Source: Patiria pectinifera
Taxonomy: Eukaryota; Echinodermata; Asteroidea; Valvatida; Asterinidae
Assembly: GCA_029964075.1 (NCBI GenBank)
Contig: CM057149.1
Span: forward strand, 320,465-384,464
Length of the DNA stretch: 64,000 nucleotides
Direction: 5' to 3'
The translations under genes were made by a program, and so were the position numbers. Of this stretch, positions 18,201-64,000 are shown piece after piece (within the stretch, counting starts at the first letter, position 1; the number at the start of each line of letters is the position of its first letter). The notes under the pieces were generated by a model. That model was not told the origin of the DNA. It did no database searches and worked only from the letters and a program-made list of their open reading frames with translations.

Positions 18201-21200
18201 AGAGAAATAAGGACAAGCAACTGACTAAAGTATGGTTGGATCCAAATAAGAAGCATGTGCCTTAGCTTCACATTATTACACAAAACCCTGAAGATGAAGC
18301 TGAAAAGATGCCCTCGATCATCGTGTCCTTACTGTCCTCACACAACCAAACATATTAATCGGTCATAGAGACTTGGACAGTACAAGATTTTCATTGAAAT
18401 ACATAGGGGCTACAGTTTGCAACTTTGTAAAAACTAATTGTACCTTAAACCAGTCAATGGTGCAGCAGTTAATAAGGGATGGGAACATGCGGATGCGATT
18501 CCTGAAAGCATCGCCAATGGGACTGAAGGCCAGTACTACATGAAGGTTACGCCTGATCCTCTCCACAAACTTGTTATACATGTTGAGTGGTGTCATCTCA
18601 ATCTTCTCATTCTCAGCAACCGCAAGCTGCTGCATCTGAAAGAGGAAGGGTAAGGGAGAACAATTTAATGGTTCAAATAAGAAAAATTAAGTTTTACAGA
18701 AAAATCCAATTCCCTTTATGATTTGTTTCACGAAAAAAGGGGAGCAGCTATAATCTTATCTCCCACGTCAGACACATACACGCGCAAGTGTGTATTTGCC
18801 AGCAATCGGGGACCCCCATTATCCCTCTTTTGTTTGTACTTCTTTCTAGTAAGACCTCCATGTTTTGTACACATCACCAAATTGGCGACCTTCAGGAATT
18901 GGGGGCCCTATTGTCCACTATTGTTCAACGTCCCTTATTGAATGCAGAAACAAACTCACAGACACTGCCATAGATTTGAATATGGCATTTACTAAGGATT
19001 TCCCATTCTCCTCCTGCTGTATCTTTGATTTCCACATTCACTCATTTGAAATCACCTTCTTTGATTTGCAAGGTATTTTCAAGTAGGGATAGTGTGCTCA
19101 GGATTTGCAATGTGGCCTCTTGGAGGGAAATGCTTTGTAGTGCTTTGTGTGGTGAATTGATATAACTATCAACCAGTGATGTAGAACTTGAGTCCAGGAC
19201 TTGGACTGGAGTCACATTTTTCGTAACTTGGACTCGACTCGAGTCACATGGGAAAATGACTCAAGACTCGGACTCGGACTCGACCATGATGACTCGGACT
19301 ACAGCTTGGTGACTCATGACTCAAAGCACATATTTTCATTTAAAGAAAAAACAATGTTACGCATTTGTGCGACTAACGTAGCATTCTTTTTTACTCCATA
19401 GACAAAACACGGCGCCGCAGAAAATCGTATCCAGGGGCAGCCCACGGCGCATGCCTAGCGCCTACACGACAAGCACCGGGGGCCGGTGTCATGCCAAAAA
19501 GTGTTGGGAGGAGGGTTTTTTTAGGAATGGGAATTAAAAGGAAAACACATGTTGGGTCTAAACAACATGTACACACACAAGGTAAACTATATACACTGGG
19601 GTCTACTTAAAAGACAGAATGGTTGATTGAAAGATAATTGAAAGAAAATTTGAATAGTTTGGTGAACAACTAGGAGCAAGTAACTCGTGACTCGGACTCA
19701 AGGCTTGTGATTCGAGACTTGGTCTCGAGGCTTGTGACTCGAGACTTGGACTCCAGGCTTGTGACTCAAGAATCGGACTCGACATTTGTGACTACAACAC
19801 TGTTATCAATCTGCTATACTCTCTTGCATCCGTTCTTGATGTACACTGACACATACGTGTCCCATGACACTATAACAATAAGTAGCAGAGATGAAACTGG
19901 CATGTGGCAAAAAAATTGGAAAATAGGCCGAACAAAAATATGTGTCCCTAATCTGGGCCGCGCTGCAGTTACATATATACAATTGTACATGTACATGCAT
20001 GTACAATACACTTCATGCCCAATTTCTGGACACCGCTTCCTGCTTCATTTTCGATTCAAACAAAATTTTAAGATGAAAATGTGCCTGTGTTTCTACCATT
20101 GAAACACTCCAATAACGACTGGTGAAAGAGATTAAAACTACATTCGCGATGATTTTAACGTGTCGTTTCCATCAATTTTCTTTGAAACTTTGATTAAAAT
20201 AAAATTAAGTTTTGTGGAAAAATCTTTACAAAATCAAATTCCGTGGGACACATTGTAAGAAAATCGGAAATTTCGTTGAAATAGTCAAAAAGTCGGATTT
20301 CTGATTAAAATCGGAAAAGTTTTATCTCTGAAGTAGTCACCGGACCTTGTCTATTTTATGTACTTGCAGCATTTGTACAGTCTTATGCCAAGTGCTGGAG
20401 GGACATGTTGTTGCTGTTACCTTCTCTATGATCTCCAGCCTGTCTTCATTCTCAAACAGGTTAGGAATGTCTCCAGTGTTAAGGATCATGTTGATGTCCT
20501 CAAGGAAAGACTCATCCTGGAAAACAAAATACAATATGATCATAATGGCACCTGTACAGGGTGAGTCAGAATGATCTGAACCCAAATTAAAGAAAATATT
20601 AAGAATATGTAACAATTACCAAAACAAGTGCAAATGAGATATTTAGTAGAGTGGTATTTTGGACATATTTGGTAAAATTTTTAAGGATATCCACTGTACC
20701 ATTTTAAAGAAAAGCGCCAGCAAAGCACACACGCTAAAAAAAAACCCAGTTCTGTAGTTCAACAAAAACAATTTCCATGGAACCGTGGTCAGAGTAATTT
20801 TTAGAAGACTTCTGGCCGTGTCCAGGGTCAGCTATTAATACTACTTATTTAGTTTATGCAAGTCCTTGTAGAGTACCTTGATCTGGTGATCTCCAAACAG
20901 AAAGACCATGGAAGCTCCTTCATCTCCTGCCTTTCGTAGCAATCTCCTGAGGTCATCCTTCCAGTCAGCTGTTGTGTAGTTTTTGGTTATCTCGATAGAG
21001 AAGAGATCATAGACAGCAATGAAAGCAGCTAGCCTGGCTGCACTCTGTCGTCCACTGCCTCCAATACCTACAACATGGCATGACAAAAGTCAAGAGATTT
21101 TGAGCATCTACAACAGGAGATGGCTTCCATGCTATCATTGGATCTCTCCACTCAGTGGAATATAGTCTTTCCTAAAGAAAAGAGCATGATGAACCCAAAA

Positions 21201-24200: not shown

Positions 24201-27200
24201 CCCACAATCATGGATGTACTGCATATTTGGCCACCTACGGATTTGGAGACAATACCACATCTAAATCATAATTTATTTAATGTCCCTTTTAAAGTATTAT
24301 TCCCCACTATTTACAACATATTTTGCAAACTCTATAAAAATATAACATTTTCCATTCAGACAACAAACTTCATGTTTATTTTCCCAATATTTCAAGTGTA
24401 TCAATGTCTCACAGATGCTAAATCAAACTTGCTTCATTGTAAATTGTGGGGTCTGTACAAAAAAAGTCTAAAATTGTAGGTGCATCTTATGGCCAGTTGT
24501 ACATACTTTGGACAGGGCCTAAACATATGACTTGCCCAAACAGATTCACATTTGCCAAAAACTTGGCTCTAGCAAGACGACCACTCTAATAATTACCTCT
24601 CTGAGTGCATCCATGTCAGTTATCTCATCGTAAAGTTTTTCATCGTCGCTTGCTGACAGATAATCCCCAAAGAACAGGCTGAAATTTGGAAGTGAATAAA
24701 TAACAGAATATTATACATCTAAACACATCATTTGACAACTTTTTTTTGAGGGCGGGGGGTTGTTGCAAGATACCAAGTAATGTAGGACAATTAGTCCTAG
24801 CGAATGGCTCGTGTACTCTAGGGAATAATGCATACGGAGCAATGCTCTACAGGTAAGATAAGCGCAGTACAATCAAATATCTTCAAAGAATTCAATTTAA
24901 ACTTAAAGAAATCTGCATATTGTGCACTTATTTCACAACAATTAAACACTGATAAAGAATTGAAAACATGCAGAGATTATTACATGCCTTTTTGCAAAAT
25001 AATGTATAGATGGAGTCATTAGAAGATAAAAATGAAATCAAAATGAAGTACACAAAATCTGACAGTGAAAGATACAAAACTGTGTCATAATTGGAGAACA
25101 ATGACTGGTAGAAAATAAAAGACTTGTGACTGACAATCAAAGAAAACAACATAAGGGTTGGATGGAAATGTGCAAACAGGAAAAGTGCTGGTTAGTTAGT
25201 TGGTGATAAAGTTCATCATAAGTAAAATATATTGATTATTTACAAAGGATGGAACATCCAAAGAATGTTGGCTTTACTTGAAAGTGATAAAACTCTTTTA
25301 CTGCCAGAGTGTAAAATTGCTGAAAAGTTAGACCCTGCACCACAATTTTACCCACAAATATGTGAAACTATCTTTCAAGATCAGTGTTGCAGGTCTCGAG
25401 ACTTGATCTCGGTCCTGACACCATCTTGAAACCTTTTTAGCAGATCTTTCTCAGTCTCAGTCTACCCTTATCAAAGTCTCGGTTTCAGGAGGGCTGGTCT
25501 CAATCTCGAACAGGCTGGACTTGTTCTCAGTCTTGGTTGTCAAGGTCTCAGATTCTACCCTTGAGACCACAATAAATAATGTTATTTTCATGCAGAGAAA
25601 TACGGTTGACGGCCGACTCAGCTGACAAATAAACACTGTGTACCATGTTGACCATTGCTCTTTAAAGTAGGACACAACACAGAACAAGGGAAATCAGCTA
25701 CAACACTATACATTTGTATGTATGCACAGTCTAAGTCTCAGATCCTTGGTCTCTGTCTCGACAAGGCTGGTCTTAACTACAAAAATTAATAGTCAATTTG
25801 TTCTAGAGTTTGATGATCACATAACAGTACATACGATAAGAAGTTGACTCCACACTGTCAGTAAAATATACATATTTTAACTCACACTGTATGAAGCAAA
25901 TACTGACAAGGTGCCTTCAGTCCTTCTGATTTGAAAATCACAGGCGTGCAATTATTCACACTTCTCGGTAAGCTTTTAAGTGTGCGATGTGGGGTGTGAT
26001 CGCACGCCTCAAATCAGGACTGTGCCTTAAACTACAACCCAGGCTGGACTTGAACCCACAACCTGCACTATTACCTACATATCTTGAGTTCATGCACTCT
26101 ACCAGGTCAATGATTGAACTCAATAAGGTGCTGTATAATAGCTTTTCATAGACTTGGTTCCAGACATGGCAAAGGGAGTATGGGGGCCAGTCTACAAACC
26201 CTCTCTAGTTTCATGTGTTTTTATCACCTGATTAAGACATTGAGATTCACTGCATACAAAAGAACTAGAAGTGTTCTACATTCTCAAATTGACATGCTTC
26301 ACATTTCATCGCCGAGGGGGTTATTGTGCACATAGCCAATACTTCCCCTGATATTACAAAAAAAACACAAAGGTTTTAGTAGGTGCAATTTGAAGACTGT
26401 GCCATGATGAGTGCAACTGCAATCCAAAAGCAAGACAGAGAGTGTTAGTGCCAAGCATTAGCAAGCTACCTTCTCATATCCTCCGATCGCACTTCTTTAG
26501 AGTCACTATGTCACGGACAACAAACATTTGAAGAAAAGAAAAATGCAGAAGCAGTGCTGGATGAGAATTAAATGGCATTTTAGACAAACAAAATTAGCAT
26601 TTTTTTTATGACAAATGAAATCTACAAAATATTACAAATAAATATTACTGAATTGCAATATGTGGTTCGTACCTCATTCAATGTATTACATGTTATGCGT
26701 ATGCAGCTAACATGCATATTTGTGGCAGCACACACTTGTTCATACATTGTACAGGAATCGCATACATTATGCCTATATAGGCATACTGCCTTGATTAAGT
26801 CCTGCTATTACAAACCTACATGTATTACCATGGCATTTGATAAAATAGCTAAACCTGTCATTTCATCATTAATAAAACACTCATTATTAACACACTTATT
26901 TCTGTATTTCTACTCCCCGATGGACATTCCTATGACAAACGTCACATAATTTCATCTCGCTTAAATGAACATGAAGTCAGCAAGGCAAATAATTGCCAAA
27001 GAGCAAAACAAAATTGACATAAAGGTGATTGATGAATACACTTGTACAATGACATTCATACGATAAGTGTATGACACAGGATGTACTATTATCCATGTGG
27101 CTCATATGGAATACCAAAGAAATACCAGACAACAAAGTTCAGTTGCAAATCATTATCAAAGTCAAATAAAAGGTTTATCACTGGCAAAAAGTTTATGTCA

Positions 27201-54200: not shown

Positions 54201-57200
54201 GGAGCTGTGGTTTTCTAGATGTAGGCCTTTTAAAATGCATCTTTAAGATGATGGGTCAAAGTGTGTGTCAAGTTAGAAGACTTCAGATTCATAAATGTGC
54301 CCAAATGGGTGGGTAGAAGAACACACACATACAAATCTTGTGCACAAAGGACTCAATCTTCTTTTAAGTTCACGAGTCAGTTATCAATTTGAATTTAGTC
54401 TAGTGCTGATTTCTGCAATTAAAGAAAGGAGAAGAAATCTACGGTAGAGTATCTAAAGCCACATGACATTTCTACTGAAACCCTACTTCCTAACAGCTTT
54501 CAAAGCTGAAAGATCAATAATTACATGTAAGTGCAAAATAATTGAATGTTTTCCTTTTTGTTTTCCATTGCAGATTCTAGATTCTCTACTCACCAACGTT
54601 TCTTCCCAGACTTTCACTTGCTTCTCAAATGGAGCAATGAATGGTGATCCCCTCATGGTTGAGGTCTTGACGATGTGATCTTCTAGCAGGACTTGCACAT
54701 CTTCAGGAGATGACAGGATACTCAGTTCAGTGTCTTTGTACTCAGTGAAGTTGAAATGAACAGACTCCCAATCATCCTTCATCTTCATTAGAGCCTGCAA
54801 TCAACATTGGCATGATGCAAACATCAGACTGATTCATAGTGTTGTAGTCAAGATCTGGAAGTTCGAGACCAAGACAGAGACCTGGATGCCCGAGGCGGAG
54901 ACCGAGACCTTGAGGTTTGAGACCGAGACTGAGACTTGATGGTCCGAGACCGAGACTTTGAGGCTTCACGTTTAATTACATATAAGTAAAGTAAAAAGAA
55001 AGAATATACATGCATAATGACATATGCGTACACACATACTGGAATTTGTATCCTTGTGGAGTCATTTCTTTGTTCTCGTGTACCGAGAACAAAAGTTTTC
55101 GAGTTTGAAAGTGTACTTTCAAAATGCTCTTATTTTAACCAGTAAGAATTTCCTAGGCTGAAATTTGCACTTAATATCCCTTACAGAAAATACTTCCATT
55201 GGCGACAGATCAACACACCTTGGAAATTCCTAGTTTTTTAGTAAAATTCAAATATCTATTTCGTGATAACCTTGTGGAGACGTATTCACCTATAGAAATT
55301 GCCCTGTGGAGACTTATACAATCTTTCGTTCCCTATTGTGCACATGTCTTCAAAAGGGTTCCATGTAACGGATCAGTCATCTTCACACCGTTTAATCGTG
55401 TTTACGTTTGTACACTAACTTTTTAGGAAGACTTCCATATGTTTTGTACACAACCCCAACCGCGGACGCACCGGTACCGTATGCTTGGAATCACGGACGA
55501 TATTGTTCTCTTTTGTTCTCCAGCATTTTTCCTCCATGGTTTGAATAGACACAGGTTTGTTATGGTGTAAATGGAGGATTTGGGATGTAAATGGAGGATG
55601 AAGGTTTGCCTCTTCCCTTTTCCTTGTTTATACTTAAATATATTTTGCAACAGCTCTCACTGGTTTTGTAAACCTTTTCTAATCGAGGTCATCCTCAATT
55701 TGGTTCCTGTCCTCAATTCAACAATGATGTTGTACATGTGTGTCCTCAAGGCTCAATTTACACCATAACACGCACCATTTTTTTGTTTGTGGTATAGTGG
55801 TAAAGTGATATTGGTTGAGTCTTAACAAGTGCATTTCATCAAGGCTTATTACAAGCCAATGTTTAATTAGAAGGGCCTCCTTAATTTGAGGGATCATAAA
55901 TTACTTTGTGTGAGTAATAAAGACAAGCAACATGTTGTTGCTGAGTTCAGATTGTTTAAGGTTCATGAGAATTTGAGTAAGTTGATTTCACATTTTAGAG
56001 GAAGGAAGTTCAAAATACACCCTGCTGATCCTTCATGATGCCTCTAGCATTAGTGATTGAACATGCTGCATACTGGTGGTCTTGATCCTGAGACCAACAA
56101 AATAAGACCGAGACCATGGGGTACCAAGACGGAGACCAGAAAAACTGGTCTTGAGACCGGTCTCAAGACATACAGCACTGCTGATTCAAAAGCAATCAAC
56201 TGTCTCTTAAACTTAATAAAACCCCAAAATTCAATCTGTAGTGCCACAGCAACAAATATAAAAATGCTTTCAGATCAGGCAATAGTATAAAATTCCTCCA
56301 TTGTCTTCATCATAAGCTTAAATATCAAAAGCATATCCATTCTTATAACTCACCTGACAAATACAGCTCTGATTTTTCAAATTTGAATTTCTTTTGTTCA
56401 ATGCAAAATTTCTTGAGCAGCCTTCCCCAAGTTTCAGACATTCTCTCACTTCATCTTGTAGGCAGGTGCTCTTTGTCTCATTAATGAGTCACTATCTCTA
56501 TCTGTCTTTAATCCATCAATCATGGGAGTTTCTAATGTATTCTTCATATACATGCATTTTCACAGTATTGTCAAAAAGTGTACTTAGTGAGCTGAAACTT
56601 TGACAGGTTAGTTGTTAAATTACCTGCTTCAGATTGATTGTATTGTTCTTTCTTGAATTGGCAAAGACACATTTTTTTTGCAACTGGTGTCAATTACTTT
56701 AGCCATGCCACCTCAACATGTTACAAATGAACAAAGTACATGTACATAATACAAACCAGTAGCACATTATTGCAGTAACTCAATCTAACAACATTGTTAC
56801 CTAGCCATGCCACCTCAACATGTTACAAATGAACAAAGTACACGTACATAATACAAACCAGTAGCACATTATTGCAGTAACTCAATCTAACCACATTGTT
56901 ACCTTTTCAAGCGCAAACTCCTTGCTTGCCTGCGAACTGATCTCTGTTAGATCCTCTAGGTACTTCTCAAGACCCATCTGTAGCATCTCCAGTAATGGTG
57001 TCTCCTTTGTTGGGGTCATGTTAAATCCAGCCTGGATATAATATCATGATCCCACGAGGAAAAATGTCAAGTCAATTCTTAACGTTTGTGTACATTTTAC
57101 TTAAATGTTCAACCATTGGCACCACTACTCATTGTATTGCACTGTATTTATTTGCTGATGAATCTATTAAAACGTACAGTGCTTGGGCAGTTAGGGGCCT

Positions 57201-60200: not shown

Positions 60201-63200
60201 ACACCCATGAAGCAAACAAAATATGTTTTAATACTCTACTCTTCTGAAACTGAAATCAGTTTTAAAGCAAATCCTATTTTCTGCGTAGTTTTGAGACAAA
60301 ACAATTATTCACCAATTTTTAGAACAATTAAGAGCTCATGTAAATTTTATTTGATACGATTTCTATGGAAAATCTGACTGAAGAAATGTACAAGCACCCA
60401 TTTTTAACTGACACCATCTGCATAAATGATGATGATGAATAAAAGATGTTTTCACATTGTTTTAATGGTTGAAACAAAATTGAGTACTTTGACCAGCAGA
60501 CAGAATACCATACTTTGATGGAACAAACATTCATTGGCTCAACATCTACATATTGGCATTCTTTCAAATAATTAACTATTTATTGGTTAATTATCTTACT
60601 TTTAATGGTTCATTCTTAAACATAAAGATGCGAAACTGAAAATCACGAGTTGGGTCAATATTTGGACCAAATCACCAGCAATAGGACAGTTTTTACATAG
60701 TTTCAGAGAGAGGATAGCCTATTTGTGCACTACAGTTTCTCCATTATACTCGGAATGGAAGTAATCTAGAAATGATGGCAAATACCCCAATAGTTTGCAT
60801 CTCATTACACACCAAGCTAATTTCCTCCACGGACAGCTTTTGTTTTTTTTCTCACCAATCTGCATGGAGACCATACCTGTTCACGTTTAGCTGTGCAGAA
60901 TATCTCCATTTAGTACCATTGCTCAGTGTGCTAAGTCCAGACACTTTGAGAATACTTACCTATTTTTGATGATTGGTACAATCCTGGTGCTCCAGGTGAA
61001 TGTAGTATCATTGAGTATCAGATCATCTTTGGACAGTGTAGCATAGTCCATTAGGAAGAGGAGGTTACTGGCTGCAATCTCAAGTCTGGTCTAAAAAAAT
61101 AGGGAAGAAAACAGGTGCTTCAAGACCCATTTACGTGATCAGCAAGAGTTTCTTCGACCCTTTGCAATCAGCTGACATCAAATGCAAAAGATGTCTGATC
61201 ATGTGTATCCCTATGGAACAAAAGAACACACTGCAAAGATGGCTGTAATTCAAAGGATCTATACAGAACTCCACTACGAGTTGTGATGGCGAAGTTCAAC
61301 CCGAAATGTATAGGTTTCAGTATTGGATATTTCCGTTCTGAAACACTCAATAAGTTTCAGGTCTTAAAAACAATCAGGTCCAAGTGACACAACATTAAAA
61401 CCTACATTTTTAGACACCAGGGGTGCGTTTGGGCAGTTATAATGAGAATTGGTTCAGCTATTTGTCATTGGCTGAGCATCTAGGGGATTGTAGTAATGTA
61501 GTAATCCTACATGATTACTGTAACACCAAAGTCAATCAAACACTCCACCAATAACCAAAAAATGAAATAGCTTTATGTTACACCCATCAAACTGTGGTTT
61601 CCCAATACGCAAATTCGTATGATTAATGCAGTATCATGGTACTTCAGTATCGCAATTATTGACGTATCATGGGATCATTGCAGCCCAACTGCCTTGACAC
61701 TACGAACACATGTAGATGGCTTTGAATGCATCAAAATGAAACACATTGCATAAGACATCATGAAAACACAAATGCGTTTGAGAGCATTTTAAGTGAACTA
61801 ATCATTTATCATGCAAAAAACTGAACTTATGTCGTGTCCCCCCCCCCAAAAAAAAATACGAGAAATGTCATGCCCTTGTGCAAATCAAATACCGTTATGT
61901 AGGCATTTAACAACTGTTCCGAATCCGTAATGCACCCTGAAAATGGCCTGACCATGGAGAGCTCCTTGTGATACACTGCTATGTGAAATGAATGCACAGA
62001 TGGCATGAGAGGATCACATCAAAGTATGGCTATATCATTGAAAACCACAGTGAAGTACCCACACCTAACAAAGTTGTGCACATACATGTACCTTTAATTG
62101 CAGCAGTTCACCAACCCACAATCCATCCACATATTCCTGCAAGGAAACTAGTTGGTTTGTGGATTCTGACTGCTGAGTTATCTTCCTGACAATGTTGTCA
62201 TACTGGGTGCAGATATCACGGTTGAACTTGTGACTGGTCGTAACAATATTGGTGATCATGATGTTGGCTAGGTCATCGGCTCGAGCCATCAACCACTAGA
62301 AAAGAAAAGTTATGATTGGATTTGGACATAAATATTCCTTATCATGGATTATATATTCACTTTTTATGGTTGGCTAAGAATTCATAATGGTATTAGAATA
62401 GGTTTCCCCAAAGCAAAACTTGTGTCATATTTATTAGTTGATGGGGAAAAAAAGAGTTTAAATTTGTTCCACAACATTGATGTGTTTCATTGTTACTTTT
62501 AATTTCAAATATGGAATTCATTTTGGGCTAGCGTATTTTATAAATGTTTTATTCCAATTCATCCCACATTTATCGTTGATATATTTGTCTGATGAGGAGA
62601 TTGGCATTTGCAAACATGATAACAAATATTCATTATTATAGATTACCATTACAATAAAAAAAGAAGAGTGAATTTATTGTACAAGTATACTAATCATTCA
62701 AATAAAGACAAAGGATTGGAATCATTTCTAACTGTAATATTCCAGCTTCCCAATACAACACCAGACAAATATGCCCATGTTTCATTCATGTAGTACACTG
62801 CACCCAATATGAAAGCTACTGATTCAATTTTGAAATTCAATTTAACAATGAAGCTAAATGGTGTTGTGGAAGAAGCTCAAGTGTAAGTAACTTCATCTGA
62901 CACAACTGTTAAAGAAACCATGAAATCCTATATTATGTACCGGTAGTTTCAACTAATGTTGTGCAAACCTGACCCAAAACCGAACCGACCTGACCCGAAA
63001 CGGACTTTGGGTCGGGTTGGGTTGGTGTTTCCATCATTTCAGTCAGGTTGGTTTCAGTTTTGCATTTGCGATCTTTCGGGTCAGGTCTGGTCGGTTAAGC
63101 CAACTTGTGAAAAACCTGAAATAAACCGAAATAAACTGGAAAAAACCTGAACCAGTTCAGAAATTCATGCGGTGCAATATTATTGCAGAGTTACTGTGCC

Positions 63201-64000
63201 CGGTACGTCAACCCACCACGTGAATGTGCATACATGTGGTTTGCAGTCAATCACGTACATTCTATAACATGTAGGCACCACCAGTAGATAAAGTTATGAG
63301 TATTCACTGTACCTTGGTATGATTATTTACTGAGAAACAAGGATTTTTCAGGCACAAAAAGTGTACACAGTTGCCCGAGCCAGATATTCGTTTTTTCCGG
63401 GTCGGTTCAGTTTCGGGTCTGTTCGGGTCAGTTTTTGCTTGATTTTTGTCGGGTCAGGTTTGGGGAGTTCAGATCGGTTTTGGTTCGGATTATATCTATA
63501 ATGTTTCGGGTCAGTTTGGCCTGATGAACCTGACCCAATGCATAACATTAGTTTCAACAAATACAGAAAGTTTGCCTGAGCGTAATCTCTCAAACCATGT
63601 AACAGTGCAATACATGTCATTATAAATTAAGAAATACTTGTATGTCTGGTATGAGAAGTTGAGTTTGGATAAGATTAACTAAAAACAAAGCAAAAGTGGA
63701 CAGAAGATGTCTTCAATATATTTAGAACTTGGAGTTGTTTGGGGTTTTTTTTTTGGTTGTTTTTTTTTCTTCGGTAAAAAGAAGTTACAAAAAGTTGAGG
63801 TTTCTTTTATTTATTGTGCTCCCCCAATTTAAAGGTCTGAAGCGTTTAGGAATACATCCGGATGCTAACTTACACTATTAATGTTATTACAGTCCAGCAT
63901 GAAAACGTGCATTGGCACATAGACAGGCAAAGATGCAATCTCTTTGGCCATCGCTTTGAGTTTCTCTATCTCTCGGACATATTCTCGCAAATGCTGCTCT
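144..64000 (-). CDS. Axonemal dynein heavy chain, DNAH3/7/12 type (partial gene, 52 exons)
   Basis: Motor subunit of an inner-arm axonemal dynein: it hydrolyses ATP and drives microtubule sliding in cilia and flagella. The exons join with matching phases into 2735 codons without a stop; numbering below starts at the first complete codon in the window. Seen: AAA1 GPAGTGKT (814-821) with Walker B CFDEFNR, AAA2 GDAIGGKT (1095-1102), AAA3 GPTGTGKS (1476-1483) with [11 protein letters not shown]4 GIGGSGRQS (1840-1848), stalk coils around a microtubule-binding tip (2213-2303), then AAA5 with buttress. Known family members run to about 4000 residues, so roughly a third is outside the window, at both ends. 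The compact linker and the motif wording fit the monomeric DNAH3/DNAH7/DNAH12 group; I cannot choose among the three. All introns are GT-AG. No frameshift or in-frame stop was found, so the gene looks functional. Confidence 0.95.
391..1486. mobile_element. Nested non-autonomous DNA transposon, 6-bp TSD
   Basis: Terminal inverted repeat (TIR) CAGGGCTTGAATT at the left and its counterpart CAGGCCTTGAATT at the right, flanked by ATGCAG (385-390) and CTGCAG (1487-1492), a 6-bp TSD with one mismatch. GGCC-rich subterminal runs lie at about 405-530 and 1350-1485. It interrupts the first minisatellite unit of the enclosing element, so it is the younger insertion. No ORF with a recognisable domain. 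Confidence 0.65.
1495..1935 (+). repeat. 145-base minisatellite, about three units
   Basis: Units repeat every 145-151 bases. Each carries TGACCTTGACCTTTGACCT or a close variant, at 1513, 1664 and 1809, followed by CCAATCCCAACTTGCC. The same monomer makes up 36500-37085. Confidence 0.85.
2254..2332 (+). repeat. tRNA-like sequence (tRNA pseudogene or SINE head)
   Basis: It has an A box (TAGCTCAGTTGGTAGAGC), a B box (GGTTCAAACCC) and a 7-pair acceptor stem GGTTGGA/TCCAGTC. The anticodon arm is wrong for a working tRNA: a 7-bp stem CCACTGG/CCAGTGG closes a 9-base loop. I call it tRNA-derived rather than a functional tRNA. Confidence 0.55.
3126..4165. mobile_element. Foldback element with inverted arms of about 200 bases or more
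   Basis: The left arm from about 3126 and the right arm ending about 4165 are reverse complements over 200 bases or more, with scattered mismatches, including TTTACTCG, TTCGCTCCTGAAAGG, GAGACCGCGGTCTCCCGCG and GATCCGTTTTGTCGA on the left arm. The outer ends lie in TATATAAGAG-like sequence. The arms are clearly more GC-rich than the surrounding intron. The 600-base centre shows no recognisable protein. Confidence 0.7.
4404..4727 (-). CDS. Dynein exon 51 (AAA5 with buttress coil)
   Basis: Residues 2593-2700, 108 codons, phase 0 at both ends. [20 protein letters not shown] is followed by the buttress helices with [20 protein letters not shown] and ends RDGYKP. Confidence 0.97.
4785..5053. mobile_element. 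hAT-like MITE, 8-bp TSD
   Basis: Ends CAGTGGCATATCCACAGGGG and (reverse complement) CAGTAGCGTATCTAGCTG. Flanks CTCTTATT (4777-4784) and CTCTCATT (5054-5061) match at 7 of 8 bases. G-run on the left, C-run on the right. 269 bases, non-coding. Confidence 0.7.
5447..5563 (-). CDS. Dynein exon 50 (AAA5)
   Basis: Residues 2554-2592, 39 codons, phase 0. [20 protein letters not shown] is one of the best conserved dynein motifs. Confidence 0.97.
5622..6080. repeat. Inverted pair of tRNA-derived repeats
   Basis: Arms of about 170 bases (about 5625-5800 and 5908-6078) are reverse complements. Each arm holds a tRNA-like segment with A box TAGCTCGGTGGTCGAGTGG; the right arm keeps a good B box GGTTTGAGTCC at about 5978. 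GGTTTTGCCCTTCACC at 5876 also recurs inverted near 6056-6072, so the right copy has its own short terminal repeats. Confidence 0.65.
6303..6389 (-). CDS. Dynein exon 49 (AAA5)
   Basis: Residues 2525-2553, 29 codons, phase 0. [20 protein letters not shown] is conserved. A minisatellite-bearing element sits in the upstream intron. Confidence 0.96.
6446..6876. mobile_element. TIR element carrying a 21-base minisatellite, 6-bp TSD
   Basis: Inverted ends TAYGAAGCCCGGGAAGGGAC (24 bases in full, one mismatch) with a perfect 6-bp TSD CTCCCA (6440-6445 and 6877-6882). The interior, about 6489-6836, is a degenerate array of roughly 16 units of CGAATTAGCAATTCGTGCGA plus one base. Because 21 is divisible by 3 it reads as open heptads (NELAIRA type), but it lies in a dynein intron and has no start or codon signature of a gene. 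Confidence 0.75.
7274..7445 (-). CDS. Dynein exon 48 (AAA5 core)
   Basis: Residues 2467-2524. [20 protein letters not shown] and [12 protein letters not shown] are AAA5 hallmarks. AAA5 does not hydrolyse ATP. Confidence 0.97.
8188..8278. repeat. Imperfect palindrome (MITE-like)
   Basis: AATAATGGCTGCTGTGATGTGGGA at the left is an imperfect reverse complement of TCCCACATCAAAACAGCCAACAATTATT at the right, around a CGCC...GGGGCG centre. No TSD defined. Confidence 0.45.
8561..8694 (-). CDS. Dynein exon 47 (AAA5)
   Basis: Residues 2423-2466 plus two bases of a split Asn. It contains [20 protein letters not shown], start of AAA5. The donor must be AA|GTAAGG, since reading on meets a stop. Confidence 0.96.
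9198..9302 (-). CDS. Dynein exon 46 (stalk base to AAA5)
   Basis: Residues 2388-2422, 35 codons, phase 0. [20 protein letters not shown] is the conserved helix leading into AAA5. Confidence 0.97.
9782..9877 (-). CDS. Dynein exon 45 (stalk coiled coil 2)
   Basis: Residues 2356-2387, 32 codons, phase 0. It ends [18 protein letters not shown], the conserved base of coil 2. Confidence 0.97.
10017..10172 (-). CDS. Dynein exon 44 (stalk coiled coil 2)
   Basis: Residues 2304-2355, 52 codons, phase 0. [16 protein letters not shown] begins the returning helix of the stalk. Confidence 0.96.
10300..10980 (-). pseudogene. Decayed non-LTR retrotransposon reverse transcriptase fragment
   Basis: Consecutive minus-strand frames read SGVPQS..L.PIAFLVM, then YQYVDDLTL (the YVDD polymerase motif), then [14 protein letters not shown] and KLLGI..LSNLKWN, then [23 protein letters not shown]. 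This order is typical of Jockey/CR1-like reverse transcriptases. Frameshifts and missing ends show it is dead. It lies inside the intron between dynein exons 43 and 44. Confidence 0.75.
11341..11541 (-). CDS. Dynein exon 43 (microtubule-binding domain)
   Basis: Residues 2237-2303, phase 0. [20 protein letters not shown] and [20 protein letters not shown] are the conserved helices of the microtubule-binding domain. Confidence 0.97.
11573..11995 (+). pseudogene. Possible retrotransposon ORF2 C-terminal fragment
   Basis: A plus-strand frame contains [15 protein letters not shown]...[21 protein letters not shown]. The pattern RLR.G/NAH...C.C....EHILEEC resembles the Cys-rich tail after reverse transcriptase in non-LTR elements. 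Weak; it overlaps no dynein exon. Confidence 0.3.
12544..12615 (-). CDS. Dynein exon 42 (microtubule-binding domain)
   Basis: Residues 2213-2236, 24 codons, phase 0. NVKPEKK...EEYWPAAKK is the first part of the stalk-tip domain. It is separated from exon 41 by a 3.35-kb intron. Confidence 0.93.
13483..15668. mobile_element. 2.2-kb non-autonomous DNA transposon with perfect 23-base TIRs
   Basis: GGGTCTTTCTACAGTATTGG plus GTA at 13483-13505 is exactly reverse-complemented at 15646-15668. TTAT flanks both sides (13479-13482 and 15669-15672). The interior is AT-rich with T-runs and a short (GTGC)n at 14764-14783; no transposase frame seen. The GGG start could fit Harbinger, but the 4-base repeat is unusual, so I do not assign a superfamily. 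It fills most of the 3.35-kb intron that separates stalk coil 1 from the microtubule-binding domain. Confidence 0.7.
15967..16125 (-). CDS. Dynein exon 41 (stalk coil 1 to tip)
   Basis: Residues 2160-2212, phase 0. It contains [20 protein letters not shown] and [16 protein letters not shown], entering the microtubule-binding domain. Confidence 0.96.
16577..16759 (-). CDS. Dynein exon 40 (stalk coiled coil 1)
   Basis: Residues 2099-2159, phase 0. Heptad-rich antiparallel coil: [20 protein letters not shown], then [20 protein letters not shown]. Confidence 0.96.
17142..17304 (-). CDS. Dynein exon 39 (stalk coiled coil 1, start)
   Basis: Residues 2044-2098. [12 protein letters not shown] marks the base of the stalk. 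The helix continues through KLDFASSQ, phase 0. Confidence 0.96.
17729..17862 (-). CDS. Dynein exon 38 (AAA4 to stalk)
   Basis: Residues 2000-2043 plus a split Met. It starts [19 protein letters not shown], the approach to the stalk. Confidence 0.95.
18444..18635 (-). CDS. Dynein exon 37 (AAA4 C-terminal part)
   Basis: Residues 1936-1999, phase 0. It contains [20 protein letters not shown] and [13 protein letters not shown], near-invariant. Confidence 0.97.
19174..19802. mobile_element. hAT-like element with GACTCG arrays
   Basis: Ends CAGTGATGTAGAACTTGAG and (reverse complement) CAGTGTTGTAGTCACAAATG. Flanks CTATCAAC and TTATCAAT differ only by two transitions, an aged 8-bp TSD. Degenerate GACTCG/GACTTG hexamers fill both subterminal zones (about 19185-19325 and 19680-19795). 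No coding sequence. Confidence 0.65.
19886..20330. mobile_element. MITE with CAGAGATGAAACT ends, 6-bp TSD, short copy
   Basis: 13-base TIR CAGAGATGAAACT (right end has one mismatch) and perfect TSD AAGTAG (19880-19885, 20331-20336). Its two halves match the ends of the 986-base copy at 50955-51940. Confidence 0.85.
20421..20516 (-). CDS. Dynein exon 36 (AAA4)
   Basis: Residues 1904-1935, phase 0. [20 protein letters not shown] is a signature of this position. Confidence 0.97.
20552..20580 (+). repeat. Solo mariner-like terminus
   Basis: TACAGGGTGAGTCAGAATGA resembles the TIR of the palindromic element at 53544. No partner end was seen nearby. Confidence 0.4.
20877..21067 (-). CDS. Dynein exon 35 (AAA4 P-loop)
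   Basis: Residues 1840-1903. P-loop GIGGSGRQS (1840-1848) has Arg where the canonical Lys would be, as is usual in axonemal AAA4. It also contains [14 protein letters not shown] and [10 protein letters not shown]. Confidence 0.97.
21811..22284. mobile_element. Harbinger-like MITE, TTA TSD
   Basis: The left end GGCCGAAAAAAAAATAGTTC and the right end are imperfect inverted repeats of about 35 bases (shared AGTTCTGCTTCTGATTAC-like core). TTA flanks both sides (21808-21810, 22285-22287). It contains the phrase TAGGGTCGGTCG, also seen in part at about 41950, 42740 and 45320. Confidence 0.6.
22511..22605. repeat. Perfect 37-base inverted repeat with 21-base spacer
   Basis: 22511-22547 and 22569-22605 are exact reverse complements (CAAATATTCACTGCTGTGGC onward). 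Part of the arm, GATAGGTCAATT, recurs at about 22933. Confidence 0.9.
22709..22790 (+). repeat. SINE 3' tail
   Basis: AGCGCCTTGAGTACCTAATAG, GTGCGCTATATAAGACTCCG and a terminal (ATT)n are typical of the 3' end of tRNA-derived SINEs. No intact head was found upstream. Confidence 0.55.
23250..23593. repeat. Foldback with 53-base arms
   Basis: 23250-23302 and 23541-23593 are reverse complements with two mismatches (TGTTTGCTACCAAAGACTGT start). The 238-base centre holds no recognisable feature. Confidence 0.75.
23600..23835. repeat. Two tRNA-derived SINE fragments in inverted orientation
   Basis: The plus-strand part starts with a tRNA-like head (GGTCCGGTGGTTATTGCGTT, B box GGTTCGAACTC), then CTCCTGGGTGGAGAG. 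The right half (about 23755-23825) is the reverse complement of its TGTAGTTAAGTTTCTT...GGCAAATA body. It stops about 15 bases short of dynein exon 34. Confidence 0.6.
23845..23983 (-). CDS. Dynein exon 34 (AAA4, up to the P-loop)
   Basis: Residues 1794-1839 plus one base of the first P-loop Gly. It contains [20 protein letters not shown] and HALLV, leading straight into the AAA4 P-loop. Confidence 0.96.
24597..24678 (-). CDS. Dynein exon 33 (AAA4 entry)
   Basis: Residues 1766-1793, starting S-LFFGDYL, a conserved motif ahead of AAA4. 82 bases, phase 0 at the 3' end. Confidence 0.93.
25382..25795. mobile_element. Probable hAT-like element with GGTCTC arrays
   Basis: The left end CAGTGTTGCAGGTCTCGAG matches the other hAT-like termini here, and GGTCTC/GTCTCG hexamers are dense at 25397-25560 and 25730-25780. 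The right end is uncertain (TACAACACTA at 25694 or a degraded end near 25795), and I found no TSD. Confidence 0.45.
25909..26029. repeat. Short palindromic MITE
   Basis: AAGGTGCCTTCAGTCC...GATTTGA...AGGCGTGC on the left is mirrored by GCACGCCTCAAATCAGGACT and GTGCCTT on the right, with indels. No TSD defined. Confidence 0.5.
26035..26128 (-). repeat. tRNA-like fragment
   Basis: On the minus strand, GACCTGGTAGAGTGCATGAAC is followed by the B box GGTTCAAGTCC. It resembles a tRNA-derived repeat; no complete cloverleaf. Confidence 0.45.
27215..27306 (-). CDS. Dynein exon 32 (AAA3-AAA4 junction)
   Basis: Residues 1736-1765 plus a split Ser. It starts [11 protein letters not shown] and leads into SLFFGDYL across the splice. 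Confidence 0.93.
27485..27748 (-). CDS. Dynein exon 31 (AAA3 C-terminal part)
   Basis: Residues 1648-1735, 88 codons, phase 0. It contains [19 protein letters not shown] and [14 protein letters not shown], both conserved. Confidence 0.97.
28183..28402 (-). CDS. Dynein exon 30 (AAA3 core)
   Basis: Residues 1574-1647. It contains [20 protein letters not shown], near-invariant in dyneins, and ends FSR in phase 0. Confidence 0.97.
28940..29089 (-). CDS. Dynein exon 29 (AAA3 Walker B)
   Basis: Residues 1524-1573 plus a split Arg. [20 protein letters not shown] includes the AAA3 Walker B acidic pair at 1543-1544. The upstream intron carries a 1.86-kb transposon. Confidence 0.97.
29140..31002. mobile_element. 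1.86-kb non-autonomous DNA transposon, 6-bp TSD
   Basis: Perfect 16-base TIR CAGGCCTTCATTTTTA (29140-29155, inverse 30987-31002) and perfect 6-bp TSD CTGTAA (29134-29139, 31003-31008). GAGCTC/GGAGCGCGA repeats lie inside both ends. Interior frames have no recognisable transposase. It begins 50 bases from dynein exon 29. Confidence 0.88.
31068..31201. repeat. MITE with perfect 25-base TIRs
   Basis: 31068-31092 and 31177-31201 are exact reverse complements (CAAATATTGAGTGGCTCATC start). 134 bases in all, no TSD recognised. Confidence 0.8.
31647..31885 (-). CDS. Dynein exon 28 (AAA3 Walker A)
   Basis: Residues 1445-1523 plus a split Arg. P-loop GPTGTGKS at 1476-1483 inside [20 protein letters not shown]3 is the main regulatory nucleotide site. 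Confidence 0.97.
32638..32661 (-). CDS. Dynein exon 27 (24-base microexon)
   Basis: Encodes NDRDYKVM (1437-1444), phase 0 on both sides, with acceptor CTACCAG and donor GTAAGG. It bridges GAKAK and INELII. No other AG lies upstream for more than 50 bases, which supports the short form. Confidence 0.75.
32662..34061. other. Introns in which nothing further is seen
   Basis: This intron shows only AT-rich sequence and a C-run near 33897. The same holds for introns 57032-57932, 58125-58945, 59141-59988, 60185-60959, 61091-62091, 52450-52968, 46933-47706, 47878-48433, 44808-45749, 45915-46466, 31886-32637, 27749-28182, 28403-28939, 23984-24596, 16126-16576, 17305-17728, 17863-18443, 8695-9197 and 9303-9781, apart from homopolymer runs and short repeats I could not classify. 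Confidence 0.6.
34062..34257 (-). CDS. Dynein exon 26 (AAA3 entry)
   Basis: Residues 1371-1436. It contains [11 protein letters not shown] and SWHRWETLV, the segment ahead of the AAA3 P-loop. Phase 0 at the 3' end. Confidence 0.92.
34732..34899 (-). CDS. Dynein exon 25 (acidic connector to AAA3)
   Basis: Residues 1315-1370 plus a split His. It opens with a strongly acidic stretch ([14 protein letters not shown]) and then joins conserved connector sequence [14 protein letters not shown]. Both ends are phase-consistent. The acidic run is unusual for this position. Confidence 0.88.
35717..35758 (+). repeat. (CAAA)n microsatellite
   Basis: About nine uninterrupted CAAA units in the intron between exons 24 and 25. 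Confidence 0.9.
36462..37347 (+). mobile_element. Helentron/pearl-like minisatellite element, copy 2 (uninterrupted)
   Basis: Same start (AAATAACAGCGTTGCTGTTG) and same end (CTCGGCTGAGGGGTAAAAA) as the copy at 297-2187, but without the nested insertion. It contains four units of the 137-145-base minisatellite, with TGACCTTGACCTTTGACC at 36538, 36675, 36820 and 36964, then CGGACGGACGG runs and the GGGGTGATGT hairpin. About 886 bases, non-coding. Confidence 0.75.
38564..38697 (-). CDS. Dynein exon 24 (AAA2-AAA3 connector)
   Basis: Residues 1271-1314 plus a split Asn. It starts [18 protein letters not shown], fitting the usual connector, and ends LLDEV before GTAAGT. A 3.7-kb intron follows. 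Confidence 0.92.
39157..40359. mobile_element. hAT-like element with AAGGCC arrays, perfect 8-bp TSD
   Basis: Ends CAGTGTTGGAGCAAAGCC and (reverse complement) CAGTGATGCAGTGCCTTG. TSD GAAAGTAC at 39149-39156 and 40360-40367, perfect. Arrays of CTCAAGGCCAAGGCCAAGG lie inside both ends (about 39175-39285 and 40225-40345). A second MITE is nested at 39348-39657. Confidence 0.85.
39348..39657. mobile_element. Nested hAT-like MITE, perfect 8-bp TSD
   Basis: Inverted ends TAAGGGCGGACCCAG and TAAGGGCGGATCTAG; TSD TCATCACG at 39340-39347 and 39658-39665. It has internal G-runs, and a GTGGTGCGATTTGAGGCAAT phrase that recurs at about 2530. Confidence 0.85.
40378..41214. mobile_element. Element with GACTCG arrays and CAGACTTGTAT ends
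   Basis: CAGACTTGTAT at both ends in inverted orientation. Degenerate GACTCGGACT arrays at 40392-40470 and 41108-41210, as in the element at 19174. No TSD recognised. It begins 18 bases after the element at 39157 ends. Confidence 0.55.
41366..41480 (-). CDS. Dynein exon 23 (AAA2 end)
   Basis: Residues 1232-1270. The split Arg gives [17 protein letters not shown], invariant in axonemal heavy chains. Phase 0 at the 3' end (KELIK). Confidence 0.96.
42290..42577 (-). repeat. tRNA-derived SINE
   Basis: On the minus strand: a tRNA-like head GGTCCATTGGTTACAGTGTT with B box GGGTTTGAATCC, then CTCTCCACCCAGGAATATAA, then TTGTGAAGCGCTTTGAGACC. The same 3' portion occurs at 49605-49692 and the head is related to 23600. 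Confidence 0.7.
42940..43040 (-). CDS. Dynein exon 22 (AAA2)
   Basis: Residues 1199-1231 plus two bases of a split Arg. It contains [20 protein letters not shown] and PATVS, completing the SPATVSR motif with the next exon. Confidence 0.97.
43290..43317 (+). repeat. (GAT)n microsatellite
   Basis: About nine GAT units immediately past the donor of dynein exon 21. Confidence 0.9.
43332..43550 (-). CDS. Dynein exon 21 (AAA2 core)
   Basis: Residues 1126-1198, phase 0. It contains [24 protein letters not shown] and the Walker B region [16 protein letters not shown] (GAT)n microsatellite lies just beyond the donor at about 43290-43317. Confidence 0.97.
43585..43927. mobile_element. TTAA-type MITE with palindromic GC-rich motifs
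   Basis: Perfect 14-base TIR CTCTTTCGCTACGG flanked on both sides by TTAA (43581-43584, 43928-43931), as in piggyBac or Kolobok elements. Inside are AGCCGCTGGCAGCGGCT (43745), AGCCGCTGCCAGCGGCT (43851) and GCCGCTGTCAGCGGC (43896). 343 bases, non-coding. Confidence 0.85.
44277..44612 (+). repeat. Dispersed repeat, copy 1
   Basis: Closely matches 55035-55375 over about 340 bases (shared CCTTGTGGAGACGTATTCA, GAAATTGCCCTGTGGAGAC, CCTTGGAAATTCCTAGTTTT). No ends or TSD recognised. Confidence 0.75.
44673..44807 (-). CDS. Dynein exon 20 (AAA2 Walker A)
   Basis: Residues 1081-1125, phase 0. P-loop GDAIGGKT at 1095-1102; AAA2 binds nucleotide structurally. I chose the GTGAGC donor after EEFK because it keeps phase with the next exon; a donor 23 bases further would break the frame. 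Confidence 0.95.
45750..45914 (-). CDS. Dynein exon 19 (AAA2 entry)
   Basis: Residues 1026-1080, phase 0. It starts [19 protein letters not shown] and ends FIEKIIQ, just before the AAA2 P-loop. Confidence 0.96.
46467..46610 (-). CDS. Dynein exon 18 (AAA1-AAA2 junction)
   Basis: Residues 978-1025, phase 0. It starts [18 protein letters not shown] and ends [11 protein letters not shown], near-invariant in the family. Confidence 0.97.
46795..46932 (-). CDS. Dynein exon 17 (AAA1 C-terminal part)
   Basis: Residues 932-977, phase 0. It starts [19 protein letters not shown] and ends YKLCSEQ, the small-domain side of AAA1. Confidence 0.96.
47707..47877 (-). CDS. Dynein exon 16 (AAA1 core, sensor I)
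   Basis: Residues 875-931, phase 0. VLSVVAQQI continues from Walker [20 protein letters not shown] includes the sensor-I Asn and the conserved PGYAGR loop. Confidence 0.97.
48434..48662 (-). CDS. Dynein exon 15 (AAA1 Walker A and Walker B)
   Basis: Residues 798-874. Walker A GPAGTGKT (814-821), then [12 protein letters not shown] and Walker [15 protein letters not shown]1 is the main ATPase site of dynein. All catalytic residues are present. Confidence 0.98.
48875..49073 (-). CDS. Dynein exon 14 (start of AAA1)
   Basis: Residues 732-797 plus a split Arg. It contains [13 protein letters not shown] and [20 protein letters not shown], both diagnostic of the N-terminal side of AAA1. Confidence 0.96.
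49434..49572 (-). CDS. Dynein exon 13 (linker end)
   Basis: Residues 686-731 plus one base of a split Ala codon. It ends ALIVIDVH, leading to the conserved ARDVV at the start of the AAA1 approach. Confidence 0.93.
49605..49692 (+). repeat. SINE 3' fragment
   Basis: GGTCTCATGGTCTGATGAAC, AATTGTGAAGCGTTTTGAG and AAGCACTATATAAGCACC match the 3' part of the SINE at 42290-42577, in the opposite orientation. Confidence 0.65.
49803..50120. repeat. Foldback element with a perfect 43-base core inverted repeat
   Basis: 49919-49961 and 49983-50025 are exact reverse complements around a 21-base spacer; outer arms (about 49803-49918 and 50026-50120) continue the palindrome imperfectly. The core holds GTGACGTAAT and its mirror, resembling a CRE/ATF site. 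Its edge lies about 190 bases from exon 12. Confidence 0.85.
50314..50466 (-). CDS. Dynein exon 12 (linker)
   Basis: Residues 635-685, 51 codons, phase 0. It contains [20 protein letters not shown], which precedes AAA1 in axonemal heavy chains. Confidence 0.94.
50614..50842 (-). CDS. Dynein exon 11 (linker, [13 protein letters not shown])
   Basis: Residues 558-634. The split Arg codon restores [17 protein letters not shown], a hallmark of the linker. Phase 0 at the 3' end (EKWLIQ). Confidence 0.96.
50955..51940. mobile_element. DNA transposon with CAGAGATGAAACT ends, 6-bp TSD, long copy
   Basis: Perfect 13-base TIR and perfect TSD ATCTAT (50949-50954, 51941-51946). The outer 200 bases on each side match the 445-base copy at 19886-20330; the middle, about 51145-51690, is absent there. 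No transposase frame. Confidence 0.88.
52291..52449 (-). CDS. Dynein exon 10 (linker)
   Basis: Residues 505-557 plus two bases of a split Arg. The AG acceptor after AATA gives W-RDIM in frame. It ends [16 protein letters not shown], conserved linker sequence. Confidence 0.93.
52969..53108 (-). CDS. Dynein exon 9 (linker, WLYLEPIF)
   Basis: Residues 459-504 plus two bases of a split Trp. It contains [20 protein letters not shown], a classic linker signature, and ends VDEN before GTAATT. Confidence 0.95.
53544..54035. mobile_element. Mariner-like full palindrome, TA TSD
   Basis: Ends CAGGGTGAATAAAAAA and its inverse ACTCACCCTG next to TA on both sides (53542-53543, 54036-54037). The two halves are reverse complements almost throughout, meeting near 53800 around CAGCAAAACGAAAAGAAA. 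About 492 bases, non-coding. Confidence 0.8.
54594..54794 (-). CDS. Dynein exon 8 (linker)
   Basis: Residues 392-458, 67 codons, phase 0. It contains [20 protein letters not shown] and ends VKVWEETL, a linker motif shared by all dynein heavy chains. Confidence 0.95.
54837..56180. mobile_element. hAT-like element with GAGACC arrays, perfect 8-bp TSD
   Basis: Ends TAGTGTTGTAGTCAAGATC and (reverse complement) CAGTGCTGTATGTCTTGAG. TSD CTGATTCA at 54829-54836 and 56181-56188, perfect. GAGACC/GAGACT arrays at 54862-54962 and 56090-56168. It contains copy 2 of the dispersed repeat (55035-55375). It inserted 43 bases from exon 8. Confidence 0.88.
55035..55375 (+). repeat. Dispersed repeat, copy 2, inside a hAT-like element
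   Basis: Matches 44277-44612 in the same orientation. Its presence inside an element with a perfect TSD suggests it is part of that element's body. Confidence 0.7.
56700..56903. repeat. 102-base tandem duplication that includes a splice donor
   Basis: Two adjacent copies (56700-56801, 56802-56903) differ at about two positions. Each ends in the minus-strand donor GTAACAATGT of exon 7, so the intron carries a second donor copy 102 bases downstream. Confidence 0.9.
56903..57031 (-). CDS. Dynein exon 7 (linker)
   Basis: Residues 349-391, 43 codons, phase 0. It ends SKEFALEK before a GTAACAATGT donor. The intron sequence right after this donor is tandemly duplicated (56700-56903). Confidence 0.92.
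57933..58124 (-). CDS. Dynein exon 6 (stem to linker, RHWDMM motif)
   Basis: Residues 285-348, 64 codons, phase 0. It carries [19 protein letters not shown], one of the best conserved motifs of the dynein heavy-chain stem/linker region. Confidence 0.95.
58946..59140 (-). CDS. Dynein exon 5 (stem to linker)
   Basis: Residues 220-284, 65 codons, phase 0. The segment [20 protein letters not shown] followed by MNGP is the familiar motif just ahead of the linker in axonemal dyneins. Confidence 0.92.
59989..60184 (-). CDS. Dynein exon 4 (N-terminal stem)
   Basis: Residues 154-219. The first base completes a Ser codon and 65 codons follow. Charged helical sequence beginning [14 protein letters not shown] and ending VLEEFYQE, in phase 0. 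Confidence 0.9.
60960..61090 (-). CDS. Dynein exon 3 (N-terminal stem)
   Basis: Residues 111-153 plus two bases of a split Ser codon. It starts [16 protein letters not shown] and ends before GTAAGT. The split codon completes in frame with the exon at 59989. Confidence 0.9.
62092..62295 (-). CDS. Dynein exon 2 (N-terminal stem)
   Basis: Residues 43-110, 68 codons, phase 0 at both ends. Helical, charged stem sequence that starts [11 protein letters not shown] and ends VGELLQLK, with AG acceptor and GTAC donor context. Confidence 0.9.
62954..63550. mobile_element. hAT-like element with GGGTCAGGTT arrays, perfect 8-bp TSD
   Basis: Inverted ends TAATGTTGTGCA and TAATGTTATGCA. TSD GTTTCAAC at 62946-62953 and 63551-63558, perfect. 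Degenerate GGGTCGGGTT/CCTGACCC arrays lie inside both ends (62968-63150, 63395-63535). 597 bases, non-coding. Confidence 0.85.
63874..64000 (-). CDS. Dynein exon 1 of window (N-terminal stem, cut by window edge)
   Basis: Residues 1-42, running off the right edge of the window. It contains [11 protein letters not shown]. The exon ends in NINS before a GTAAGT donor, in phase 0. It belongs to the N-terminal stem ahead of the linker. Confidence 0.85.

Follow-up and report, generated by a model that had tools for sequence, protein, structure and literature searches.

How could a transposase and a many-copy array evolve in step while the element stays mobile, when a single altered unit out of about a dozen should bring no advantage? 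This puzzle is raised by a group of hAT-like elements in a 64,000-nt stretch of the 613.5-Mb Patiria pectinifera genome (C21:320465-384464, hereafter the window). A preliminary description had proposed that four elements, and probably a fifth (E25), share one terminus and one transposase lineage, and that their subterminal arrays are unrelated to each other, having turned over together with the DNA-binding BED finger of the transposase.

Elements in the window and their target duplications

Members of the hAT superfamily have short inverted tips that follow the pattern YARTGNTG, and such tips were present at both ends of E19, E39 and E54 and at the left end only of E25. The elements and their parts are as follows, with array types named after base N of the coding-strand unit and strand given as the coding-strand direction of the array.

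19166..19173, no strand: left copy of the imperfect duplication of E19, CTATCAAC, 6/8 against 19803-19810
19174..19802, + strand: E19, non-autonomous hAT-like element with A-type (GGACTC) arrays, from its tips CAGTGATG/CAGTGTTG and units
19683..19793, + strand: right array of E19, 27-bp period, from the tandem repeat period and units
19803..19810, no strand: right copy of the imperfect duplication of E19, TTATCAAT, 6/8 against the left copy
25382..25800, + strand: E25, a decayed relative with the T-type (GGTCTC) unit, whose left tip is CAGTGTTG; right end unplaced
39149..39156, no strand: left copy of the E39 duplication, GAAAGTAC, 8/8
39157..40359, - strand: E39, non-autonomous, C-type (coding strand GGCCTT, + strand AAGGCC), from its array match to L034-L036 and L052
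40360..40367, no strand: right copy of the E39 duplication, GAAAGTAC, 8/8
41101..41200, + strand: fragment of an A-type (GACTCG) array with no recognised ends, located 0.7 kb past E39 (TRF 41106-41170, period 27)
54829..54836, no strand: left copy of the E54 duplication, CTGATTCA, 8/8
54837..56180, - strand: E54, non-autonomous, T-type (coding strand GGTCTC, + strand GAGACC), from its match to L032
54864..54957, - strand: array of E54, 27-bp period, from the tandem repeat period and units
56181..56188, no strand: right copy of the E54 duplication, CTGATTCA, 8/8
62946..62953, no strand: left copy of the E62 duplication, GTTTCAAC, 8/8
62954..63550, + strand: E62, probably from a different hAT lineage, with GGGTY units and the ends TAATGTTGTGCA/TAATGTTATGCA
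63551..63558, no strand: right copy of the E62 duplication, GTTTCAAC, 8/8

The shared terminus proposed earlier thus applies, roughly, to E19, E25, E39 and E54, and not to E62 with its longer end. The three perfect 8-bp target duplications were confirmed (E39, E54 and E62), and 8/8 duplications were also found at L037 and at an element on contig C7, both described below; the broader claim of duplications in all of the elements weakens to 6/8 at E19 and fails for E25, where the candidate right end at 25708 gave 3/8 and nothing of at least 5/8 was reported within 5 kb. Among random pairs of positions 300–1500 bp apart in the window, 8/8 occurs with a chance of 5.5e-5 and at least 6/8 with a chance of 0.0063. 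In the window and twenty 10-kb stretches taken at round coordinates of contigs C1-C6, 8/8 was seen in 2 of 731 tip pairs, which are those of E39 and E54 (the right tip of E62 falls outside the tip pattern used); five flank-offset controls for the tip pairs gave zero 8/8, and none of the tip pairs in the 200 kb outside the window reached 7/8 or 8/8.

No coding sequence for the hAT dimerisation domain (PF05699) was found in the window elements. Five of the eight frames scanned, the minus-strand ORFs 4380-4862, 15679-16176, 48422-48781, 50467-50877 and 52209-52631, matched dynein heavy chain domains, and E19, E25 and E39 are therefore probably intronic in a dynein heavy chain gene. The interior of E39 (39349-39658) resembles repeats in L020 and L021 at 75–82% identity and is probably a nested repeat, and that of E54 (55036-55383) resembles L023:4447-4782 at 82%, as a related copy or a nested repeat. 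The window also contains a 145-bp unit in two tandem arrays 35 kb apart (1495-1930 and 36496-37085), as well as tandem arrays with a 21-bp period, built of other palindrome-like units (6446-6876; similar arrays are at L012:6321-6650 and 7461-7690), which are possibly the end arrays of further transposons.

One array unit, GGNCTY, with a variable third base

When read on the coding strand of the hAT transposases, the arrays of E19, E25, E39 and E54 are variants of a single unit, GGNCTY (GGACTC in E19, GGTCTC in E25 and E54, GGCCTT in E39). The earlier view that the arrays are unrelated does not hold, and was rejected for E19, E39 and E54 on the basis of the same unit, shared steps and the hexamer agreement given below; of the proposed turnover there remains a change mainly at N, rather than a wholesale replacement. 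The best 5-mer of each 170-bp end zone was compared with 500 first-order Markov draws, which gave p<0.002 (left) and 0.038 (right) for E19, 0.002 and 0.006 for E39, and 0.026 and <0.002 for E54; the arrays were not significant in this test for E25 (left p=0.17; p=1.0 for the 170 bp before 25800) or E62 (p=0.41 and 0.25). In other zones of the window the best 5-mer count was 8 at the 95th and 16 at the 99th percentile, as simple repeats elsewhere also reach high counts, and the count alone is therefore not unique to the elements.

Units are spaced by 6 bp within short runs, followed by a 15-bp step (6 bp plus a 9-bp spacer), which accounts for the 21-, 27- and 33-bp periods; L057 differs in having a 5-bp step of GACTC (10/16 gaps). 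At either end of an element, units are mainly in the same orientation relative to the coding strand, whereas the tips are inverted, with 25/79 units reversed in six 5′ zones and 18/172 in twelve 3′ zones. The assigned N was the commonest among forward units in 20/20 end zones, an agreement that is partly circular because the types were named from those arrays, and neighbouring units 5–6 bp apart had the same N in 100/114 pairs (the unit pattern G[ACT]CT[CT] leaves N=G uncounted, and the 20 zones include the near-identical copies L034/L036 and L038-L040). Some GACTC units are present in C-type arrays (3/18 in L034).

The terminus YAGTGNTGTAGTCGAGNCC has 979 exact occurrences genome-wide (494 forward and 485 reverse), with 0 for the reversed control. 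This pattern reads the terminal unit alone and not the array behind it, and its N is the complement of the unit N (T for GGACTC, A for GGTCTC, G for GGCCTC). A hand tally of the 100 termini listed, all on C1-C3, gave T 53, A 33, G 14 and C 0, so that the fourth unit, GGGCTC, is absent among these. All 14 GAGGCC-type termini in this list were on the minus strand, the other types being mixed. A tip probe, YAGTGTTGCAAA, gave 301 matches versus 120 for its reversed control, and 0/8 loci viewed had these arrays adjoining.

Transposase loci with matching arrays

The hAT loci with coding capacity that were fetched are the best 12 of 94 genome-wide PF05699 matches, all 12 over the cut-off. GGNCTY arrays were present at 9/12, reading GAGACC at L032, L033 and L038-L040, AAGGCC at L034-L036 and GACTCG at L037, which correspond on the transposase coding strand to GGTCTC, GGCCTC and GGACTC, respectively. 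A recognisable tip adjoins the array in 8/9 of these, L032 being without one. Autonomous hAT copies with matching arrays, as sought in the preliminary description, thus have candidate loci for each GGNCTY type. Among them is a full C-type element of 5132 bp (C7:23123321-23128452) flanked by the duplication ATAATGTT (8/8), in which a BED exon and a dimerisation domain (PF05699) both exceed their Pfam cut-offs. Its exons recur in L035 and L036 at 90–100% identity, with one stop in L036, and C-type movement may therefore be recent. L037 is an A-type element of 1596 bp with the duplication ACCAGGAG (8/8) and a decayed coding part. In scans for an RNase H-like domain, the C-type middle exons matched DUF659 at 25.1 bits (cut-off 34.7), and L031 and L029 had weak PF14372 matches below cut-off.

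The link of E54 to a T-type transposase is strong at the sequence level, as its positions 8-160 match L032 at 77.6% identity (E 2.4e-27). That of E39 to a C-type transposase is weaker, since E39 matches the C-type loci inside the array only (45–53 bp), and E19 and E25, which none of the fetched hAT loci matched at E 1e-6, would be assigned to a transposase type through motif and tip only.

E62 is most likely a member of a different hAT lineage, one that has a GGGTY array of its own. Its tips, TAATGTTG/TAATGTTA, recur in other copies: with 40 of 912 candidates scored, there were 46 matched pieces including E62 itself, the others being 69–82% identical, and seven other copies had a duplication of 8/8 in one, 7/8 in one and at most 5/8 in four, with no tip pair in one. 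Positions 396-576 of E62 resemble the region 3′ of the L031 transposase (72% over 190 aligned columns, E 7.5e-17). L031 lies outside the GGNCTY clade, and this match was the basis on which a place for E62 in the lineage of the other four was rejected, with less certainty than the other rejection. It is located ~640 bp past the dimerisation domain of L031, a locus in which no tip was found; the connection is therefore one partial match at one locus, and a truncated E62 copy could have come to lie there by chance while E62 itself shares the lineage of the other four. This is unlikely, as E62 has different ends, units and period (GGGTY, 5 bp) from the GGNCTY elements, and none of the GGNCTY loci among the fetched hAT loci matched E62 at E 1e-6.

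For the GGNCTY types, a tree of C-terminal domains (58–118 shared columns, several ingroup rows near-identical, the L056/L057 group left out) placed the partners of each array type in a single clade, with eight ingroup rows separated from three other hATs (L029-L031) at a support of 0.951. T types were grouped at 0.847 and the place of the A-type had 0.548, and array type and tree thus agree, weakly. Identity in these domains was 45–61% between array types and 29–37% to L029-L031. Such low identity between types, over so few columns, could also suggest that the array types are separate hAT families whose similar units and shared short tip arose by convergence, with no turnover within a lineage. 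T-type loci are hardly closer to each other (50–71%, the near-identical L038-L040 aside) than to C-type loci (50–61%), and the two ranges overlap. Short hAT tips resemble each other across the superfamily. The window hexamers agree in 4/6 columns, which three random hexamers reached in 0.0244 of 20,000 draws with the strand free (0.0067 with the strand fixed). The autonomous units, however, agree in 5/6 columns (0.0002 strand fixed, 0.0008 strand free; the real hexamers of both comparisons were picked after looking), the arrays are built of the same unit, run in the same direction and are spaced by the same 6-bp and 15-bp steps, and in the 979 termini the unit follows the 11-base common end of the TGTAGTCGAG type at a single fixed place, although this place is built into the search pattern. 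Independent origins are unlikely. We favour, with a probability of roughly 0.7, the reading that subfamilies of a single hAT lineage left E19, E25, E39 and E54 behind as non-autonomous remnants, with arrays that would serve as BED sites, and that E62 is of another lineage; the single lineage proposed earlier would accordingly keep four of its five elements, those for which hAT loci with matching arrays fall in a single clade.

BED fingers and the reading of the array

In the mechanism that we propose, the transposase would most likely grip its ends via several BED zinc fingers on the tandem GGNCTY array, and the short tip YAGTGNTGYAG would be handled by a conserved core, the subfamilies differing mainly at unit base N (A, T or C). 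As neighbouring units mostly share N, the array seems to be rewritten in concert when the specificity shifts. That the arrays are instead by-products of slippage or satellite growth within the elements is improbable: they do have satellite-like 21- and 27-bp periods and also occur outside recognised elements (for example 41106-41170), but they are found at both ends of E19, E39, E54, L037, L038 and the C7 C-type element, and other hAT transposases bind such repeats according to the parts of PMC3143072 and PMC10368747 used here. We therefore retain the arrays as predicted BED sites.

The BED domain (PF02892) exceeded the cut-off in C-type and A-type exons, and the decayed exon of the T-type L055 scored 16.6 against a cut-off of 20.6. 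Four BED exons were read, ending in GTTSNFTRHLQRVH for the C-type (L052), GTSSNFSRHLKGKH for the A-type (L056) and GTSSAFTRHLSRAH for the T-type (L054 and L055). Both GGTCTC-type fingers have Ala where the A-type and C-type have Asn. In Hermes of the house fly, the BED finger binds subterminal repeats, with contacts by S66, N67 and R70 (PMC10368747, in part). The S-N-x-x-R of the starfish fingers has the spacing of these contacts, which would place the Asn-to-Ala difference at the base-contacting N67 position. A PDB sequence search with the C-type N-terminus gave no match. L054 contains a stop and L055 is without one zinc cysteine, and the two T-type copies may represent a single event. L055 was paired with L032 by position alone, at 8.5 kb, and L056 was likewise assigned its dimerisation domain and array from position, a distance of 3.4 kb being seen in four pairs of this kind. 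A coupling of finger change to array change is suggested by the T-type pair. The GACTC- and GGCCTC-type fingers both keep Asn despite their different arrays, so one shared difference cannot explain all three types, and the co-evolution of array and finger in the preliminary description is borne out to this extent only. A bolder proposal, in which the subfamilies of one clade in one genome are split by N, each N is read by an altered BED helix, and N acts as a password upon whose change the array is rewritten, is tentative, and we consider it more doubtful than probable. Separately, C8:109041-2607508 holds 13 of 77 BED/second-exon matches and C8 none of the 94 PF05699 matches; the cluster perhaps represents BED genes that were domesticated, or a further type of transposon.

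hAT transposases are already known to bind short subterminal repeats, which differ from one element to another (PMC3143072, PMC10368747 and PMC8097297, each used in part). In the portions cited, Hermes resembles the system described here in its N-terminal BED finger, in short subterminal repeats arranged differently at each end and in the spacing of its contacts, but its AAGT repeats are sparse and near the tips, in contrast to dense GGNCTY arrays in three variants (PMC10368747). Herves and other hATs likewise have an element-specific subterminal motif at both ends, and binding regions that differ in sequence between transposases give specificity; that comparison spans distant elements, whereas here near one-base variants occur in one clade and one genome (PMC3143072). 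The motifs of four hAT-encoded CGG-binding proteins match the subterminal regions of their own elements, and these proteins share a BED finger plus following domain and many specificities, but they are mostly domesticated genes from many species, and the portions cited describe no array series in a single clade like the one here (PMC8097297). What seems new is the close, near one-base array series within one clade and one genome, and searches of the open-access literature brought up no paper on a series of this kind. As a single genome supplies this series together with some thousand exact termini, the partner transposases and their BED sequences, the question of how transposase and array change together becomes testable, and the series could help to decipher the BED recognition code.
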